Origin: Desulfovibrio cuneatus DSM 11391
GTDB lineage: Bacteria; Desulfobacterota; Desulfovibrionia; Desulfovibrionales; Desulfovibrionaceae
Assembly (NCBI RefSeq): GCF_000430005.1
Contig: NZ_AUCY01000032.1
Coordinates: forward strand, 1 to 37,341
DNA: 37,341 bases
Direction of reading: 5' to 3'
A program made the position numbers and the translations under genes. The notes under the pieces were generated by a model. The model was given only the letters and a program-made list of their open reading frames with translations, searched no databases and had not been told where the DNA came from. This document shows, in pieces, positions 5,301 through 27,820 of this stretch; within the stretch, counting starts at the first letter, position 1; each line of letters opens with the position of its first letter.

Positions 5301-5728
5301 GCGTTGGAAGCATTTGCCACATTACATGATGTTTGTAGAAGGTGCGATGTGAAGTGCAGCAAGAGGCAGCCAGTGGTTAGCCAACGCTAAGCAGTAAGGC
5401 AAAGTGGGTAGCATTCAGGCCATGGCATGTGGGGTAGGGCGCATGTGCCAGCACGGGGCAATGGTGCTTGCTTAATGAGAAAAGGGCAATGTTTGTAGCA
5501 ACAGTTGTTACAATAAACGCACACCCCGGTATGGTTCCATACCGGGGTGTGCGCGCAAGTAAAATGAAGCAGGGAGGAAGCTGGGGCAGATGCTCAGCCA
5601 TTCATGGAGCAATTGACAAATGAAATGAGCGTATTGCGCGACTGTTTCACGTGTTGCATGCTCTGTACGGAAGGCTTTGTTACCCTACTTCTTCACGAAG
5701 CTTGAGGGAAGAAAGGGAAGTAATGCAG
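5301..5728. other. Non-coding stretch between convergent genes
   Basis: No credible gene is seen. The minus-strand frame at 5377-5601 has no ribosome site and runs straight through a strong hairpin. The region holds the hairpin at 5518-5553 and otherwise unremarkable sequence. Confidence 0.5.
5518..5553 (-). terminator. Perfect 17-bp hairpin, probable terminator for the barrel gene
   Basis: Arms 5518-5534 and 5537-5553 are exact reverse complements, with only TT between them, so the real loop must open further. The minus strand continues with TTTATTG, giving a short U-tract in the direction of the outer-membrane gene that ends at 5754, about 200 bases upstream. On the plus strand there is no T run. 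Confidence 0.55.
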
Positions 5729-5756
5729 TTAAATGGAATCAACCTGCGTTTCCCTA
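5729..5756 (-). repeat. Dispersed repeat family 1, single end (copy 2)
   Basis: The minus strand reads TAGGGAAACGCAGGTTGATT and then CCATTTAAC. TAG is the stop codon of the barrel gene, preceded by T, giving TTAG. It matches the family best over the first 10-12 bases, then diverges by a small insertion. Confidence 0.5.
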
Positions 5757-6284
5757 AAAATTGAGGCCATACGAAACGCCATACGTGTCAAAGGCGTCGT
5801 CGTTGGTGGTAATGCCCCAGGTGGAATGGGTTGTGTATTCCCCTTGAACGCGGTGCTGCATACTTTCACCAAACTGCACGCCAGCCATGCCTTTGGTTCT
5901 GAATACAGCGTTGCTGCCCATTTTCCACTGGTCAAAGTTTCTTTCCGTGATTACTGCGCCGCCAAGAGAACCGCCAAGGTAAGGGCGGAAGGCGCTTTGG
6001 CTGGTGAACAGGCTCAGGCGGACACCAGGCGCAAGGAATGCGCCGTATACGTCTTTGCTGCTGCGAATGCTCCACCAGGAGGCACCAATTTCTGCTGTGG
6101 GGGCTATTTCACCCAGTTCGCCACTCACCCACGGGTTGTACACCTGTTCGGCAAACACGGTGAAGGCCGAAGAGCTGTGGTCACCAAATGCGGCACTACC
6201 GCCAACAGCAGTGCCTGCGGCGTGTGCTGTGCCAGACATGCACACCAGCAGGAGGAAGGTCGTGAGCAGGATGTTTTTTTTCAT
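5754..6284 (-). CDS. Outer-membrane beta-barrel protein, lipid A deacylase (PagL)-like
   Basis: A 176-residue protein with a clean Sec signal peptide (MKKNILLTTFLLLVCMSGTAHA) and alternating hydrophobic strands ending in the barrel-type C-terminus GVSYGLNF. The last third (Y, then THSTWGI, then D two turns before YGVSYG) resembles the active-site strand of PagL 3-O-deacylases, which carry His-x-Ser there. Here His directly precedes Ser, so the catalytic His would be displaced by one residue; the protein may be an inactive relative or simply another small barrel. If active, it would remove an acyl chain from lipid A in the outer leaflet. GAGAGGG lies upstream of the ATG. It is divergent from rplM and stands alone. 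Confidence 0.6.
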   Translation of the reverse strand: MKKNILLTTFLLLVCMSGTAHAAGTAVGGSAAFGDHSSSAFTVFAEQVYNPWVSGELGEIAPTAEIGASWWSIRSSKDVYGAFLAPGVRLSLFTSQSAFRPYLGGSLGGAVITERNFDQWKMGSNAVFRTKGMAGVQFGESMQHRVQGEYTTHSTWGITTNDDAFDTYGVSYGLNF

Positions 6285-7470: not shown

Positions 7471-7532
7471 CGTTTAGTGGTTTTAGGGTGAGAATGTTTT
7501 TGTTTTGCAGCGGAAAATGGCCACGAAGCTAA

Positions 7533-7556
7533 GCGGAATAAATCAACGTTTCCCTA
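7533..7556 (-). repeat. Dispersed repeat family 1, single end (copy 3)
   Basis: The minus strand reads TTAG then GGAAACGTTGATTTATTCCG, one of the closest matches to the complete element. It lies between rpsI and the lipoprotein gene and does not touch a stop codon. Confidence 0.65.
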
Positions 7557-7617
7557 AAGCTTTTGCTCCTGTCGCCGATAGGTAGGTATGTACGCCGAAG
7601 GCGGGAGGATAAATACA

Positions 7618-15420: not shown

Positions 15421-15456
15421 TTAGGAAATTCTGGTTTATTTCGTTTGGCTGCGTTG
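15421..15456 (+). repeat. Dispersed repeat family 1, degenerate single end (copy 4)
   Basis: TTAG GAAATTCTGGTTTATTTC and then GTTTGGCTGCGTTG aligns over about 35 bases with the start of the complete element at 27690, including the inner GTTTGGCTGCGTTG. It lies in the leader of the EamA transporter gene. Confidence 0.6.
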
Positions 15457-15586: not shown

Positions 15587-16471
15587 GTGCAGCGCTATTT
15601 GGGTATTTTTTATATAGTTGCGGCAGCTTTTTTGTGGGCCTTTATTGGCCCTTTTTCACGTTATTGCCTGCAAAGTGGCATCAGCCCAGCAGAAATTGCC
15701 TTTTGGCGGGTCACTTTTGCGGCTATTCTCTTTTTAACCCATGCATGGTTTCAAGGGTGGCAGTTTGTGCGTTCCCGTAGTGATGCCATGGGTTTTTTGC
15801 TCTTTGGCGGGCTGGGCATTGGTGGGCTTTTTGCCCTGGTCTTTAACGTTGTGGAGCAAGGCGGTGCTGCGCTGGCTTCTGTTATGTTATACACAGCTCC
15901 CGCCTGGGTGGCACTTTTTTCCCATGTTTTTTTTCATGAACCGCTGACCCGCCGGAAAATACTGGCTGTGGGGTTGTGTTTGGTGGGGGTGGTGGGCATC
16001 AGCTTTTCCGGTGGGGGAACAGGGCAGGGCTTCAGCCCCCTGGTGGTGGGCATGGGGCTGGTTACCGGTATTTTGTATGCCTCACACTATGTGTTCACTA
16101 AAAACTTTCTGGCGCGCTATTCCCCCATGATGCTTTATGGCCAAGCCATGGCGGTGGCAGCTATTTGCCTGTTGCCCTTTGTGACTTTTAGCCACAAAAC
16201 CCCTAGCGACTGGTTTTTCCTGCTGGCGTTGGGCTTTTTTTGTTCGTACTTAGGGTATTTTGTCTATTGCCTTGGCATTGAGCGTATGCAGCCTACCAAA
16301 GCAGCCATTCTGGCAACACTGGAGCCTTGTTTTGCCACCTTTGTGGCTTGGTGGTGGTGGGGGGAATTGTTCACCCCACTGGGCTGGGCTGGGGCCGGGC
16401 TTGTGCTTGCCGCCGTGCTTGTGCAGATAAAGCCTGACCCCGCTAGTGGGGCAAGCGGGAAGAAAGACTGA
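15587..16471 (+). CDS. EamA/DMT family transporter
   Basis: A 294-residue protein with about ten membrane segments in two EamA repeats (first from YLGIFYIVAAAFLWAFIGPF, second from LVVGMGLVTGILYASHYV), typical of drug/metabolite exporters of the RhaT/YdcZ superfamily. The conserved end of each repeat is visible (ALASVMLYTAPAWVALFS and KAAILATLEPCFATFVAWWW). The frame is open back to 15476, but the extra 37 residues are polar and unlike the family; GAGG at 15578-15581 five bases before a GTG at 15587 marks the likely start. The substrate cannot be told from sequence; amino acids or other small metabolites are usual. It is a single gene, ending at a 21-bp hairpin. Confidence 0.87.
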   Translation: MQRYLGIFYIVAAAFLWAFIGPFSRYCLQSGISPAEIAFWRVTFAAILFLTHAWFQGWQFVRSRSDAMGFLLFGGLGIGGLFALVFNVVEQGGAALASVMLYTAPAWVALFSHVFFHEPLTRRKILAVGLCLVGVVGISFSGGGTGQGFSPLVVGMGLVTGILYASHYVFTKNFLARYSPMMLYGQAMAVAAICLLPFVTFSHKTPSDWFFLLALGFFCSYLGYFVYCLGIERMQPTKAAILATLEPCFATFVAWWWWGELFTPLGWAGAGLVLAAVLVQIKPDPASGASGKKD

Positions 16472-16503
16472 TAGGTGGCTAGTATCCTATTCAATATAAA
16501 CAT

Positions 16504-16551
16504 AAAATACACAGCGGGTGGCCTCATGTAAGGCCACCCGCTGTGTATTTT
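16504..16551. terminator. Bidirectional terminator, perfect 21-bp stem
   Basis: Arms 16504-16524 and 16531-16551 are exact reverse complements with a 6-nt loop and A/T tracts on both sides. It sits between the convergent EamA and GGDEF genes and can serve both. Confidence 0.9.
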
Positions 16552-16639
16552 TGTCAATTGCATGACTGCTGGCGTAATGTGCTTGTCATAATTATGACGT
16601 ATGGAAGTGGAATGCTGTTTTCTTCTCGTCAATACAAAA

Positions 16640-18127: not shown

Positions 18128-18182
18128 AGTCATCATTCCTCAGTAAAGACCATTGCAAAACTATGCTGTACGGCTACAAAGC

Positions 18183-18320
18183 CGGATAGCATTGGGGCGA
18201 TTTTGCTTACAAAATTCCCCGCGTAGCGTGTTGTTTGCCTTTATAATCACTTCTTTTTGTCCTCTCTTTTAAGGTAATGCTTGGCAGAGAACAAAAAGAT
18301 AACCAGACAGTATTGATGAA
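18183..18320 (+). repeat. Two-hairpin intergenic element, copy 1
   Basis: It aligns along its whole length with 23900-24038. The first hairpin is GGGGCGATTTTG CTTA CAAAATTCCCC (18194-18220). The second is CTTTTTGTCCTCT ... AGAGAACAAAAAG (about 18253-18299). The sequence has diverged between copies while both stems remain pairable. The functional strand is unknown. Confidence 0.65.
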
Positions 18321-18665
18321 AGCCGCCCCAGGGCCGTAGTAGGAAAAAATGGTCAGAAGGGCGTGTGTCGATTTCTTTATGCAAATTATGCGCCAAGTTA
18401 TAAGTTTGTGTTGTTTATGTTGCGAATGCGGCTTCGGGGGTGGTTGTTGGGTCAAAATTTCCTCGTAATGGCAAGCTGTTGCCTGGCTATTATTAAGGGT
18501 GAAGAGTTCCTTTTGTATTGATGGCAGAAGTGCCGGGAGGAAAATGGGGCTGTGCCTTGCTGGACAGTGCGCCGGGAATAGCGTAAAATTGTCTTGCTTT
18601 TACTGGTGACTCCCACCTTAAACGACACGCTTCTCGGGTGTCCGCGTTGCGTCCACCAAGCAATT

Positions 18666-18685
18666 TCAAAGTGAAATTGCTCTAA
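18666..18685 (-). repeat. Dispersed repeat family 2, copy B
   Basis: The minus strand reads TTAG AGCAATTTCACTTTGA and continues AATTGC, making a short palindrome (GCAATTTC / GAAATTGC). It ends 18 bases before the birA start. Confidence 0.55.
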
Positions 18686-18702
18686 CACTTTGGAATGCCT
18701 GA

Positions 18703-19752
18703 ATGACATGTGCCTCTTGCCCTTCATCTGCTTCTTTGTGTGAACCTCCTGCGGAGCCTTCCGTTGCTTCGTGTTGCCTTATTGCTCTTTCCCGGGGGCT
18801 TCCTCCCTTTGCTGAACCGCTTGTGTGTGCCGATATGCGCGGCCCCCTTTCGCTTTTTGGCGAAGTCAGCATTTTGCCAAAACCCATCGGCTACTGGAAA
18901 AACCCTGGGTTTTCCACGCTGGAAGCGTTTGAGCGCCAAGCCCTTGCAGGGGCATTGCTACTGTGCGACTCCAGTTCCCGCGTTAATGCGCAGGAATGCC
19001 GCCTGCTTCCGGCAACGCTGTATTTGGCAGGGGCTGTTTCTTCTACCTTTGATGTTGCGTGGCGCTTGCATGCGTTGGGCCAAATGCCGCCTTGGGGCGG
19101 GGTGCTGGCTTCCTGCCAGCGTGAAGGCCGTGGGCAGGTGCGCAGGGCGTGGCATTCCCCTTTGGGGAACCTGTTTGTTACGTTTCGTTTGCCGGAATCC
19201 CCCCTGTTTCGCACACAAGCCGCAGCCGTACTTGTGGGGGCAATTCTTGCCCAGGGGCTATGCCGCCTTGGGTACAGCGCTGGCATGAAGTGGCCCAACG
19301 ACCTGCTTTCCCTTGAGGGAAAAAAGGTGGGCGGTATTTTGCTGGAAGAACGAGGCGGTGTGCTCATGGTGGGCATGGGGCTGAACCTTATGGAAGCACC
19401 GCCCCCCGCTGCAATGCGCGCCGAGCATGCCTGCCCCGCAGGGGTGCTGCTGCCGGATGACGATGAAAAGCATTCTCTTGCTGCACCGTTTCCGTTGTGG
19501 GTGGACCTTGTGCGTGAATGTATGGATATTTTTGCCGCCCAGTATGCAGGTGCCACCCTGGAACAGGCCATTGCCCTGGCCCAGGAACAACTTGTGTGGC
19601 GCTCACAGCCTGTGGAACTTGTGGAAGAAGGGGAGGGCGTAGTGCAAGGCATCTGCCTGGGGCTAGGGCCGCAGGGGGGGGTGCTGGTACGCACCGCTGC
19701 GGGTGAGGTGTGCGAACATACCTGCGGGCAGTTGCGCCTGCGTAAGGGCTAG
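18703..19752 (+). CDS. birA: Biotin--[acetyl-CoA-carboxylase] ligase (no HTH domain)
   Basis: About 349 residues. The catalytic core has SCQREGRGQVRRAWHSPLGN (biotinyl-AMP loop; the common form is GRGRxGRxW, here GRGQVRRAW), KWPNDLL and GKKVGGILLEE (biotin and ATP pocket), followed by the small C-terminal SH3-like domain. There is no N-terminal winged helix, so it is a ligase only and not a repressor. About 100 residues precede the core and are of unclear nature. The start is uncertain: only GGAA lies before ATG 18703, next to a dispersed repeat, and a later start is possible. It lies directly upstream of pyruvate carboxylase, its obvious substrate. Confidence 0.88.
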   Translation: MTCASCPSSASLCEPPAEPSVASCCLIALSRGLPPFAEPLVCADMRGPLSLFGEVSILPKPIGYWKNPGFSTLEAFERQALAGALLLCDSSSRVNAQECRLLPATLYLAGAVSSTFDVAWRLHALGQMPPWGGVLASCQREGRGQVRRAWHSPLGNLFVTFRLPESPLFRTQAAAVLVGAILAQGLCRLGYSAGMKWPNDLLSLEGKKVGGILLEERGGVLMVGMGLNLMEAPPPAAMRAEHACPAGVLLPDDDEKHSLAAPFPLWVDLVRECMDIFAAQYAGATLEQAIALAQEQLVWRSQPVELVEEGEGVVQGICLGLGPQGGVLVRTAAGEVCEHTCGQLRLRKG

Positions 19753-19990
19753 TTGAAGGCACCATTTTTTTGTGTATTTACACTGATATGTGCGGGTTGC
19801 CCGTAACAGGCACCCCTTGTGCTTTCTTGCTATTTGGCTTACGAAAAAAAGTCGAGTGTGTATACGTGCCATGTGCAAGGCATGGTGCCACTCCGGAAGC
19901 AATTCCCCGGCATAAAAGAGCGGCGCTGTGCGCACAAGCCGGACATAAACATAAGAACCGTTTGCGGCACGGTGAGGAGAGCGAAAGACC

Positions 19991-22900
19991 ATGGGTATTT
20001 TGACGTTTGACCAAGTTGTGAAACAATTAAAAGGCAAGGCCATTCTTGTTGCCAACCGGGGTATTCCTGCGCGGCGTATTTGCCGTTCTGTGCGGGAACG
20101 GTTTGATGCCACTGCCGTGTTAACTGCCACCGACGTGGACAAAGCCTCTCCGGCTGCCGCTGCCGCACAAGAATTGTTGCTGCTTGGGGCGGACGCCCGC
20201 GCCTACCTTGATATAGAGCGCATCATTACCCTTGCCAAACGGCGTGGTATTGCTGCCATTCACCCCGGCTGGGGCTTTGCTTCGGAAGACGAAGCCTTCC
20301 CCCGCCTGTGCGCTGAAGCAGGCATGATTTTTATTGGCTCCACTGCAGAAGCCATGAACCTTTTGGGCAACAAGGTGCAAGTGCGCGGGCTTGCTAAAAA
20401 ACTGGGCATTCCTGTTGTGCCGGGTTCAGATGGGGCAGTGGACGTGCCAAAAGCCCGCGAAGCGGCACAGCAAATTGGTTTCCCAATAATGCTGAAGGCC
20501 GAAGGCGGCGGCGGTGGTCGTGGTATTTTTGAGGTGCATAATGAAAAAGACCTTGAAGATGCGTTTTTTAAAGCGTCCACCATGGCCCAGGCTTCTTTTG
20601 GCAACCCCCGCGTGTATGTGGAAAAATTCCTGCAGCGTGTACGGCACATTGAAATTCAGGTTATTGCCGACACTTACGGCAATGCCTTTGCCTTTGATGA
20701 ACGCGACTGTTCCGTACAGCGGAACAACCAGAAGCTGATTGAAATTACCCCCTCCCCCTGGAAGGGGATGACAGAAAAACTGCGGACAGAACTGAAGGAA
20801 TATTCCCTGGCCCTTGTGAAGGCCGTGGGCTACCATTCCCTGTGTACCGTGGAATTTTTGATTACCGAAGACGGCACACCCTATCTGATTGAAGTAAACA
20901 CCCGCTTGCAGGTGGAGCACGGTATTACCGAATGCCGCTACGGCATTGACCTTGTGGAAGAGCAGATTGCCGTTGCTTTTGGCAGCAGGCTGCGCTTTAC
21001 GGAAGAAAATACCCGGCCCAACCATGCCGCCATGCAGGTGCGCATTAACTGCGAAGACCCGCAGAAAAACTTTTCCCCCAACGCAGGGCTCATCACCCGC
21101 TACGTTTCCCCGGGTGGCCCCGGTGTGCGGCTTGATTCCAACGTAAGCGCCGGGTATGAGTTTCCTTCCAACTACGACTCCGCCGCAGCACTGCTTATTA
21201 CCTATGGGCAAGATTGGCCCAAGGTGCTGGGCATTATGGAACGGGCCCTGGATGAATACATTATTGGCGGGGTCAAAACCACGCTGCCCTTCCACAAGCA
21301 GGTTATAGCCCACCCCCTGTTCCGCCAGGGAGAATGCGACACCCGGTTTATTAATGCCAACCCGGAACTGATGGATTATTCCGATGTGGCGGCAGAATCG
21401 GAGCGCACAGCCCGCCTTGTGGCGGAAATTTCCGCACGTGGCTATAACCCCTTTGTGCAGCTTGGTGAATACCGTTCCAGCACCACCCCGCGCGTGCCCC
21501 AGTTCGACCTGGTGCTGCCGGAGGTGAGCCAAACGGCACGCCGCATGCCATCACCTTATCCGCGCAAAGACAAGAAAGCATTGCTGGAGTATGTGCGTGA
21601 ATCTGGCTATGTGCACTTTTGCGACACCACCTGCCGCGACACCACCCAATCCAACAGCGGCAACCGTTTTCGCCTTGCGGAAGACAGGATAATTGCCCCG
21701 TACCTGGATAACTGCAACTTCTTCTCCCTGGAAAATGGCGGTGGGGCTCATTTCCACGTTGCCATGATGGCCAATATGACCAACCCCTTTGCGGAAGCTC
21801 GGGAATGGAATGCCCTGGCCCCAAAAACCATGAAGCAGATTCTTATTCGCTCCACCAACGTGTTGGGGTACAAGCCCCAGCCCAAAAACCTCATGCGGGT
21901 TATGGCGGAGAAAATTTGCGAAGAATACCACGTTATCCGCTGTTTCGACTTTTTGAACCATGTGGAAAACATGCGGCCCTTTGCTGAAGTGGCCCTGAAC
22001 ACCGAAGGGGTGCTGTTTGAACCTGCCATTTCCCTTACCTACGGGCGTGGGTTCAGCATTGAACATTATATGGACGTTATCAACGCCATAGTGGAACAGA
22101 ACGCCAGTCTGCTTGGGGTTTCCCCGCAGGAAGCCACACGCCTGTTTGTGCTAGGCCTGAAGGACATGGCAGGCAACTGCCCACCCCGGTTCATGTTCGA
22201 TTTTGTCAGCACCATTCGTAAAACATGGCCGGAGCTTACCTTGCATTACCACAGGCACTACACGGATGGCCTGTTCGTGCCTGCTTTGGGGGCTGCTGCC
22301 AAGGCTGGCGTGCATATTGTGGATACCACCCTCGGGGCTGCCATGCGCTGGTATGGCCAGGGTGAAGTGCTTTCCACTGCCGCCTATTTGCAGGATGAAC
22401 TGGGCATAAAGAACAACTTGAACAAAAAAATGATCCGCGATGCCAACTTTGTGCTGAAGCAGCTCATGCCCCATTACGACCGCTACACCGCCCCGTACTT
22501 CCAGGGTGTGGATTATGACGTTATGGAGCACGGCATGCCTGGTGGGGCCACCTCTTCTTCCCAGGAAGGCGCCCTGAAGCAGGGGTACATTCACCTGCTG
22601 CCCTACATGCTGCGCTTTTTGGCAGGCACCCGGCAGGTGGTGCTGTACCATGACGTTACCCCAGGCTCCCAAATTACCTGGAACACCGCCTTTTTGGCCG
22701 TGACCAGCGCCTATAAGCGCGGCGGGGAAAATGAGGTGCAGTACTTGCTTGAAGTGCTTGAAAACGTCACTCGCGTGCCGGAAGCAGACCTCAGCCCGGA
22801 AATGAAAGAGGCCCGTTTGGGTCTTTACCAGGACAGTAACGACGCTTTCCGCAACCTGTTGCTGGGGCGTTTTGGCAAACTGCCCATGGGCTTCCCGGCA

Positions 22901-23692
22901 GACTGGGTGTACCAAAGTGCTTTTGGGGCTGAATGGAAGCGAGCCATTGAGCAGCGCACCATACTCTCCCCTCTGGATTCTTTGCACGATGTGGACTTTG
23001 AGACGGAACGCAAATCCCTTACAGAGCAAATACACAGGGAACCAACGGAAGATGAGTTCCTGATGTACCTGAACCACCCGGCAGATGCCATTAAAACCAT
23101 TGAATTCCGCAGAAAGTATGGCAACCCCAACAACCTGCCGGTGCATGTGTGGTTTGAAGGGCTTATGCCTGCCCAAGACCTGCAATTTACCGACGCCAGT
23201 GGCAAACCCCACCAGTTGACCATTCTGAACATTGGGGAAGTAGATAAAAACGGTGTTTCCGTGGTGCGCTATGTGCTGGACTCCGAATTCCTCAGTTGTG
23301 AAGTGCAGGTGGCCAAGCCGGTTGCAACGGGCAATGTGGGGGGCACCAAGGCAGACCCCAGCAATGAATACCACGTGGCTGCGCCCAGCAATGGTGACTT
23401 GTGGGTTATGTATGTGCACCCCGGCGATCTGGTGCAAAAGGGTGAGGAACTCTTTAACATTTCCATCATGAAGCAGGAAAAGGCCGTGTGCGCCCCATGC
23501 AATGCCGTGGTAAAACGGGTGCTGAAAACCGCCGACTACCGCCACAGCAAGCAAATGATGCCTGTGCGCGAAGGTGATTTGATTGTAGAACTTGGCCCAG
23601 TGCCCCGCCTGTGTGAAAATGAAGCATGCCGCAAGCCGTTGCCGGAAGATGCCTTTGTTTTCTGCCCTTATTGCGGGAACAAGGCCGGCTGA
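19991..23692 (+). CDS. pyc: Pyruvate carboxylase, single chain, divergent form
   Basis: 1233 residues. Biotin carboxylase comes first (LVANRGIPARRICRSVRE, ATP-grasp loop KAEGGGGGRGIFEVHNEKDL, EVNTRLQVEHGITE), then the carboxyltransferase barrel from about 540 (HFCDTTCRDTTQSN; the family norm is DTTFRDAHQS) with the conserved Lys region LKDMAG at about 723, then the biotin carrier domain near the end. The biotinylated Lys is Lys1161 in ISIMKQEKA, where most carriers have AMKM. Beyond it is an extra C-terminal zinc ribbon (Cys1208, 1213, 1225, 1228). It carboxylates pyruvate to oxaloacetate. It sits between birA and ppsA. The start has only modest ribosome-site support (GAGAGCG) but agrees with the family N-terminus. 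Confidence 0.94.
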   Translation: MGILTFDQVVKQLKGKAILVANRGIPARRICRSVRERFDATAVLTATDVDKASPAAAAAQELLLLGADARAYLDIERIITLAKRRGIAAIHPGWGFASEDEAFPRLCAEAGMIFIGSTAEAMNLLGNKVQVRGLAKKLGIPVVPGSDGAVDVPKAREAAQQIGFPIMLKAEGGGGGRGIFEVHNEKDLEDAFFKASTMAQASFGNPRVYVEKFLQRVRHIEIQVIADTYGNAFAFDERDCSVQRNNQKLIEITPSPWKGMTEKLRTELKEYSLALVKAVGYHSLCTVEFLITEDGTPYLIEVNTRLQVEHGITECRYGIDLVEEQIAVAFGSRLRFTEENTRPNHAAMQVRINCEDPQKNFSPNAGLITRYVSPGGPGVRLDSNVSAGYEFPSNYDSAAALLITYGQDWPKVLGIMERALDEYIIGGVKTTLPFHKQVIAHPLFRQGECDTRFINANPELMDYSDVAAESERTARLVAEISARGYNPFVQLGEYRSSTTPRVPQFDLVLPEVSQTARRMPSPYPRKDKKALLEYVRESGYVHFCDTTCRDTTQSNSGNRFRLAEDRIIAPYLDNCNFFSLENGGGAHFHVAMMANMTNPFAEAREWNALAPKTMKQILIRSTNVLGYKPQPKNLMRVMAEKICEEYHVIRCFDFLNHVENMRPFAEVALNTEGVLFEPAISLTYGRGFSIEHYMDVINAIVEQNASLLGVSPQEATRLFVLGLKDMAGNCPPRFMFDFVSTIRKTWPELTLHYHRHYTDGLFVPALGAAAKAGVHIVDTTLGAAMRWYGQGEVLSTAAYLQDELGIKNNLNKKMIRDANFVLKQLMPHYDRYTAPYFQGVDYDVMEHGMPGGATSSSQEGALKQGYIHLLPYMLRFLAGTRQVVLYHDVTPGSQITWNTAFLAVTSAYKRGGENEVQYLLEVLENVTRVPEADLSPEMKEARLGLYQDSNDAFRNLLLGRFGKLPMGFPADWVYQSAFGAEWKRAIEQRTILSPLDSLHDVDFETERKSLTEQIHREPTEDEFLMYLNHPADAIKTIEFRRKYGNPNNLPVHVWFEGLMPAQDLQFTDASGKPHQLTILNIGEVDKNGVSVVRYVLDSEFLSCEVQVAKPVATGNVGGTKADPSNEYHVAAPSNGDLWVMYVHPGDLVQKGEELFNISIMKQEKAVCAPCNAVVKRVLKTADYRHSKQMMPVREGDLIVELGPVPRLCENEACRKPLPEDAFVFCPYCGNKAG

Positions 23693-24105
23693 TAACCCCT
23701 TGCGTTTCGGTGTTTCGCAGCTTTTATTGCGGCGTAACACCGAAACATTCCTCTGGCTTGGTGCCTGTGGCATGGCCAGCCTTCTTTTTTTGCAGCCCTG
23801 TGTAGTAATAAGGGGCAGGCCGTTTTTTCAGCAGTGCATGTACTTGCATTGACGTTACTGAAAATACTCTATAAGCTGACAAAAATATCCGGTTAAAAGT
23901 CGGGTAGCTTTGGGCGATTTTGCTTGCAAAATTGCCTCGCATAACGTGTCTTTTGTCTTTAGAATCACCTCTTTTTGTCTCTTATTTTGGTCTGGCGTTT
24001 GCCTGAGAACAAAAAAAGAGCCAGATAGTTTTGATAAGTTGAAGTGGATGTTCCTATTTTTCCCACGAACTGATTTTCCCATCTCGCATTGAGAGGAGAG
24101 ACGCA
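23693..24105. other. Non-coding region between pyc and ppsA
   Basis: An 11-bp stem GTTTCGGTGTT / AACACCGAAAC (23704-23746) lies just after pyc, without a T-tract; it could slow or stabilise transcript ends. Further on is copy 2 of the two-hairpin element. No gene is credible. Confidence 0.5.
23900..24038 (+). repeat. Two-hairpin intergenic element, copy 2
   Basis: Same order and orientation as 18183-18320. The first hairpin is GGCGATTTTG CTTG CAAAATTGCC (about 23912-23935). The second is CTCTTTTTGTCTC ... GAGAACAAAAAAAGAG (about 23970-24020). It ends 67 bases before the ppsA start codon, so it would lie in the ppsA leader if transcription starts upstream of it. Confidence 0.65.
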
Positions 24106-27689: not shown

Positions 27690-27820
27690 TAGGGAAACGC
27701 TGATTTATTCCGTTTGGCTGCGTTGCTCGCTTTTTTTGAGGCGGGGCAGGACCAAAGAGTCCAGCACCCACCTCAAAAAAAACTCATGCCTTGCCAAACG
27801 AAAAACTGAGCGTTTCCCCA
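27690..27820. repeat. Complete family 1 element: MITE-like 131-bp long hairpin
   Basis: The left arm GGGAAACGCTGATTTATTCC + GTTTGGC (27692-27718) and right arm GCCAAACGAAAAACTGAG + CGTTTCCCC (27793-27819) are imperfect inverted repeats of about 27 bp. Inside, TTTTTTTGAGG / CCTCAAAAAAA forms a second stem with a GGACCAAAGAGTCC hairpin at the tip. No coding capacity. It begins three bases after the ppsA stop and could also act as its terminator. Confidence 0.7.

Follow-up and report, generated by a model that had tools for sequence, protein, structure and literature searches.

The pyruvate carboxylase gene pyc of Desulfovibrio cuneatus DSM 11391 lies in a block with birA and ppsA, and two similar sequences able to form hairpins occur close to these genes. 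Are the hairpins a structured RNA leader that coordinates the pyruvate/PEP genes, or do they belong to a structured mobile repeat? A preliminary description had raised both readings. We analyzed the whole 37,341-nucleotide stretch of DNA that holds the locus (the window), together with the rest of the genome and its relatives. In the best explanation, the hairpins belong to a mobile element and not to the pyruvate/PEP genes: the element is almost certainly a ~155-bp nonautonomous transposon (MITE), and there is nothing out of the ordinary about its insertions near birA and ppsA.

Anatomy of the element

At the left end of the element, the terminal inverted repeat CAATGCTGTCCGGCT pairs with a nearby inverted copy to form the 34-nt hairpin I. 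Hairpin II follows, a palindrome built around ATTTTG/CAAAAT. A conserved link, AGCGTGTCGTTTGC, leads to hairpin III, a CTTTTTGT/ACAAAAAG stem with a long loop, and the right end is the terminal repeat ...AGCCGGACAGTATTG. The terminal inverted repeats are ~15 bp long; paired end to end, 80.6% of cells pair, versus 24 to 44% in slid registers.

Copy 1 (155 bp; 18161-18315, forward strand; covariance-model score, 161.8 bits) lies between a divergent GGDEF gene, whose start is 24 to 33 nt away, and birA, whose start is 387 to 519 nt away depending on the start codon chosen. All of its features read on the forward strand: hairpin I at 18161-18194, with the left terminal inverted repeat as its 5' arm (18161-18175); hairpin II at 18195-18220 (GGGCGATTTTG...CAAAATTCCCC); hairpin III at 18253-18298, with arms CTTTTTGT (18253-18260) and ACAAAAAG (18291-18298); and the right terminal inverted repeat at 18301-18315. 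Copy 2 (154 bp; 23880-24033, forward strand; 134 bits) lies between pyc and ppsA, with the ppsA start 72 nt downstream. Its hairpin I (23880-23912; 5' arm and left terminal inverted repeat, 23880-23894) has decayed. Hairpin II (23913-23936), hairpin III (23971-24018; CTTTTTGT/ACAAAAAAAG) and the right terminal inverted repeat (24019-24033) follow on the same strand. Forward-strand target duplications flank this copy, ATAAGCTGA on the left (23871-23879) and ATAAGTTGA on the right (24034-24042), and they agree at 8 of 9 positions.

The preliminary description had aligned 18183-18320 with 23900-24038 end to end in the same orientation. The two stretches are indeed homologous and similarly oriented (78% identity over query positions 16 to 155), but those boundaries were wrong: the copies start 20 to 22 nt earlier and end 5 nt earlier. 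Both hairpins that it named, II and III, are present, but a third, hairpin I at the left end, had been overlooked. Base differences said to preserve pairing within the stems could not be upheld, since the two copies hardly differ in the named stems and thus by themselves give no evidence of compensation; compensatory changes appear only across 26 or 34 copies. Nor do the copies bracket a birA-pyc-ppsA module: only birA and pyc lie between them, because copy 2 sits between pyc and ppsA.

The element is dispersed through the genome

How many copies does this genome carry? A DNA search of the assembly (3.36 Mb, 76 contigs) returned 29 matches including the query, the best nonself match having an E value of 1.8e-58. 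From 26 of the 29 we built a covariance model, which gave 58 rows at an E value of ≤0.1; the best 34 of these are near-full-length copies, 149 to 158 bp long in 33 cases and 133 bp in one. In our reading, the weaker 24 rows are for the most part fragments, isolated hairpins and hairpin I seen from the opposite strand. These 24 were excluded from the 34-copy alignment, 3 of the 29 matches from the 26-copy alignment, 4 of the 29 from the target-duplication statistics and 1 of the 34 copies, which has no right gene, from the start-codon distance test. For 34 randomly placed copies, about two neighbor gaps within 6 kb are expected by chance; hence nothing special attaches to the closeness of copies 1 and 2. 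The element is too short to encode a transposase.

Several other repeats were seen along the way. At G000:C8, two copies (16258-16412 and 16422-16576) lie 9 bp apart, with near-identical right halves and strongly different left halves; either a tandem insertion or a duplication with conversion would produce this pair. Hairpin I stands alone, with the rest of the element absent, at G000:C7:23480-23513, C4:68168-68201 and C56:8667-8701. A further lone hairpin-I palindrome, at 65098-65131 of G000:C11 (locus L161), is nested in a longer palindrome (AGAGCATTTTAACTTTGAAAA ... TTTTCAAAGTTAAAATGCTCT). Isolated sequences resembling an end, at C21, C31 and C2:4144, were set aside as probable chance matches. 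A second dispersed repeat, with the core TAGGGAAACGCTGATTTATTCCGTTTGGCTGCGTTG, occurs in the window at 5727-5758 and 7527-7558 on the reverse strand and at 15424-15456 and 27690-27726 on the forward strand, and also in other contigs of the genome (L150, L155 and L164).

Target duplications and decay

The sequences flanking the copies carry a clear signature of insertion at a single length. At 9 bp, the flanks are 0.76 identical, compared to 0.30 for shuffled pairings (z of 13.1), while the other duplication lengths from 4 to 12 give z values between -1.1 and 2.3 (25 of the 29 matches in each case). At least 5 of the 9 positions match in 26 of the 34 copies. Copy 1 counts against the MITE reading here, since its flanking 9-mers match at just 3 of 9 positions.

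Such direct repeats have been described as fading with time (PMC10969869). Across all 34 copies, the duplication match falls as the element diverges (r of -0.50). In the 26 copies with a recognizable duplication, the divergence implied by the duplication is 0.099 changes per site per copy, against 0.097 for the core, the most conserved quarter of the element, which was chosen after conservation had been seen; because these copies were picked for a recognizable duplication and the core as the best conserved part, the agreement of the two clocks is limited to those 26. For all 34 copies, the duplication identity of 0.68 implies a divergence of 0.18, versus a mean core divergence of ~0.12 by our averaging. 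Insertion followed by neutral decay is the simplest reading of these data. Among the genomes searched, birA proteins within the genus are only 41 to 49% identical in the main matches, too distant for an empty site to be read at the DNA level. Decay of target duplications can serve as a rough neutral clock against which a regulatory-RNA reading is checked.

Hairpins I and II covary by most measures

RNAalifold gave a weak consensus for the 26 copies (-2.57 kcal/mol, 14 pairs) and did not recover the stems of hairpins II and III as such; pairs were therefore counted on a structure that we specified manually. For hairpins I and II together, 84.9% of cells pair, compared to 32 to 47% in slid registers. 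Cells changed on both sides with pairing kept number 48, against 18.7 in shuffled and 18 to 30 in slid alignments. Fifteen pairs show any such two-sided change, versus 11.1 when shuffled (21 of 500 shuffles reach 15) and 11 to 20 when slid. The shuffles behind these counts ignore the kinship of the copies. By most measures, hairpins I and II covary. Hairpin III has one pair changed on both sides, and the end-to-end pairing of the two terminal repeats, good as it is, is without covariation. In the preliminary description, hundreds of copies at random positions and no covariation would have marked a mobile repeat; the outcome is mixed, with tens of copies, not hundreds, and covariation by most measures in two of the hairpins.

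Covariation in hairpins I and II exceeds what a plain MITE needs and so counts against that reading. Does it point to RNA? Selection on an RNA strand should tolerate G.U over A.C. The distinct pair types number 16 G.U versus 12 A.C in one count and 12 versus 9 in the other, neither difference being significant, and neither G.U nor A.C cells exceed the shuffled mean. The palindromes look as if they are held together as palindromes, either because the element needs them while mobile or through copying from one arm to the other. Covarying hairpins in bacterial intergenic repeats, then, need not imply a regulatory RNA.

Genomic settings of the copies

With our own gene caller and refined starts, none of the 34 copies overlaps a called open reading frame (ORF) by more than 40 nt. 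Our cruder first caller, with starts unrefined, had 4 of the 34 touching an ORF, which counts against the MITE reading. Fifteen copies lie between divergent genes, 17 between tandem genes (11 with the gene direction and 6 against it) and 1 between convergent genes; 1 setting was unresolved. Intergenic DNA in the sampled stretches, copies included, amounts to 16.6 kb divergent, 17.5 kb tandem and 3.0 kb convergent. Since it is itself mostly divergent or tandem, the settings of the copies carry no weight.

The preliminary description had suggested examining whether copies favor particular genes. Neighbors at the right end share no theme: the seven right-hand genes checked against Pfam encode a HycI-type protease, an RsmB/F methyltransferase, a TPR protein, a peptide deformylase, an ABC transporter, a cytochrome c assembly protein and one product that was unmatched.

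Might some copies of a MITE family nonetheless have been recruited as 5' leaders, their right end just upstream of the ribosome-binding site and their hairpins affecting downstream translation or mRNA stability? Where the right gene points away from the element, 7 of 26 copies have their right end 9 to 11 nt upstream of the start codon, against an expectation of 1.4 (P = 1.1e-6), and for the left end the count is 0 of 21; the covariation of hairpins I and II would also fit. However, the 9- to 11-nt range was chosen after the data had been seen, so the proximity to start codons is a lead and not an established result; a wider range of 0 to 15 nt gives 7 observed versus 3.0 expected (P = 0.01). 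The start codons also came from our own caller, which awards a Shine-Dalgarno bonus, and under the first caller the count near starts was 6, with a different copy among them. Finally, where a duplication is recognizable (26 copies), decay of the core is no slower than that of the flanking 9-mers, which gives no sign of selection at these sites. We consider recruitment of this kind improbable.

birA-pyc-ppsA is an older gene block

NCBIfam supports the pyruvate carboxylase assignment and gives BirA and PEP synthase as top hits that fall slightly below its curated cutoffs. For comparison we took the best 80 of 96 pyc loci found outside this genome; by title, most come from Desulfovibrionaceae and other former Deltaproteobacteria. 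Among loci with sufficient upstream DNA, birA adjoins pyc in 65 of 67; among those with sufficient downstream DNA, ppsA adjoins pyc in 39 of 64; and 36 loci have both genes beside pyc. The element was found in 0 of the 80 (L046-L125). We conclude that birA-pyc-ppsA is an old gene block and that the element is a later addition in this lineage.

This comparison bears directly on the proposal of a structured, riboswitch-like RNA leader coordinating birA, pyc and ppsA. Hairpins with compensatory changes would suit such a leader, as would the position of copy 2 upstream of the ppsA start. Yet the 34 copies lie next to unrelated genes and in both orientations, they carry 9-bp duplications, their G.U pairs are not preferred over A.C beyond composition, Rfam has no match at gathering cutoffs within the window, and relatives keep birA-pyc-ppsA without the element. 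Hence, the two hairpin copies are most likely not an RNA switch tying the pyruvate genes together, and we give the coordinating leader almost no credence. A false lead on pyruvate/PEP regulation is thereby removed.

Searches in relatives and other collections

We scanned 288 genomes of the family. A sequence pattern for the element hit one of them, its own genome; the covariance model hit two, its own and G296, a member of another genus. The model scan, with strict filters and just 10 candidates scored per genome, may miss weak relatives. The G296 element is 190 bp long and scores 31.4 bits. It shares the ends of the window element as well as hairpins I and II, and the 9-bp duplication around it, TGGTGGTTT, is perfect. 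Used as a DNA query, it matched 4 of the 288 genomes, three of them by only 26 to 60 nt, and found no match in the D. cuneatus genome; its kinship to the window element thus rests on ends and folds. In G297, of the same genus as G296, a 144-bp element ends similarly and is flanked on either side by AAAATAGTG, likewise a perfect 9-bp duplication. When the end pattern was run on 11 chosen genomes, counts were often close to the control, and leads were selected by eye. A DNA search of 39 relatives gave a single 31-nt match, in one of them. The 25-base core had no hit in viral contigs and the 32-base pattern none in the genome_contigs collection; five plasmid records match the window region, none covering the element. 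A Desulfovibrio MITE is absent from the paper titles among the matches listed, which leaves its absence from the literature unproven.

The 190-bp element invites a second look at the folded head. This could be a MITE lineage with one end folded back, in which an inverted duplicate of the left terminal repeat makes a strong hairpin, with a second palindrome after it; the head would have been kept by compensatory change within one genome, would recur in another genus and would be a working part, either as a cruciform signal for the transposase or as an RNA leader. Were it an RNA leader, it would make insertions just upstream of start codons tolerable in the orientation that points the right end at the gene. 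We hold this elaboration to be possible but doubtful.

An IS4-type insertion sequence is the likely mobilizer

Which transposase could move an element that encodes none? Two truncated copies in another genome, G300, carry a transposase tail. Next to a truncated end in G300 lies part of an IS5-type transposase, which was considered as the parent and rejected because its homology ends at the boundary of the shared 191-bp piece; the tail of that shared piece led to an IS4-type element. The 53-residue tail, used as a query, matched 39 of the 288 family genomes, two of which contain at least 23 copies apiece; the D. cuneatus genome gave no match. The same end lies beside the transposase tail in genomes of the same genus (L215 and L217). 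In 5 of 12 examined loci from other Desulfovibrionaceae, paired ends are 1,260 bp apart. These ends (CATTGCTGTCCGGCTAAG, CAGTGCTGTCCGGCTAAG or CAATGTTGTCCGGTTAAG) are near-identical to those of the window element, and the flanks are perfect 9-bp duplications in three of the five and match at 1 of 9 positions in the other two. The encoded transposase has 389 residues, with DDE_Tnp_1 and DUF4372 domains, and contains YKERWQIEIFFREVK, which we take to fit the YREK spacing. At L218, by our reading, ends ~454 bp apart, one with 4 mismatches, have AGTAAATAT on both sides; this is perhaps a deletion form en route to a MITE.

In the D. cuneatus genome, a search by eye for inverted end pairs 500 to 3,000 bp apart with at most 3 mismatches found one, at C25 27530(+)/28237(-) (723 bp), and its 27530(+) member is one terminus of a MITE copy. 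A search for DDE_Tnp_1 in this genome, which is 96% complete, was negative; the partner insertion sequence (IS) is therefore probably gone, and the MITE family is probably stranded. That no IS was found there counts against the MITE reading, and mobilization in this genome is inferred. On sequence grounds, an IS4-family element of other Desulfovibrionaceae is the likely mobilizer. Its transposase, acting in trans, would bind the ends of the element, move it and make a 9-bp staggered cut; the IS would later have been lost, as its absence from the assembly suggests, and the MITE copies would then decay at a roughly neutral pace.

The partner IS, being of DDE type and almost identical at the ends, also bears on a further alternative: that the element is a palindromic repeat of REP/BIME type whose movement depends on a REP-associated tyrosine transposase or a related single-strand mechanism. 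Stand-alone hairpin I at C11:65098, C7:23480, C4:68168 and C56:8667 would be expected of such a repeat; terminal inverted repeats with 9-bp target duplications, and the IS itself, argue against it, and we judge it very improbable. The structured mobile repeat that the preliminary description offered as its other reading is thus borne out by the 34 copies scattered through the genome, by their terminal inverted repeats and 9-bp duplications, and by the matching IS4-family IS of relatives.

Comparison with known insertion sequences and repeats

This work describes a MITE family and its likely IS4-type partner in the Desulfovibrionaceae. It is a known kind of element, the MITE family of an IS4-type insertion sequence, but its folded head is unusual. 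The IS4Sa subgroup, as tabulated in PMC2266710 (Table 1), has CA------T ends, lengths of 1,150 to 1,750 bp, direct repeats of 8 to 10 bp and a YREK motif. The partner IS resembles these elements in its length of 1,260 bp, its start (CATTGCTGT), its 9-bp duplication and its DDE_Tnp_1 transposase, and so it fits the IS4 family, IS4Sa subgroup, an assignment made by ends, length, duplication and motif rather than by a tree. Unlike an IS4Sa IS, the window element has no transposase and shares little with its partner beyond the ends.

MITEAba12 of Acinetobacter (113 bp, with 16-bp terminal repeats and 9-bp duplications) is likewise transposase-less, and its identity to its candidate IS is confined to the ends (PMC6382973). 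It differs in its weak predicted folding and in being attributed to another IS, ISAba12; in the main text of that report, a hairpin is not mentioned (PMC6382973). As described in PMC2229807, the Correia/NEMIS, ERIC and Caulobacter CIR repeats are ~100 to 200 bp long and their transcripts form stem-loops, and the two separate arms and linker of CIR somewhat resemble hairpins I and II. These repeats have other sequences and hosts, and RNA effects are described for ERIC and NEMIS (PMC2229807). In most of them, according to the same account, the 5' end pairs with the 3' end, while the left end of the window element can also pair with an inverted copy inside the element.
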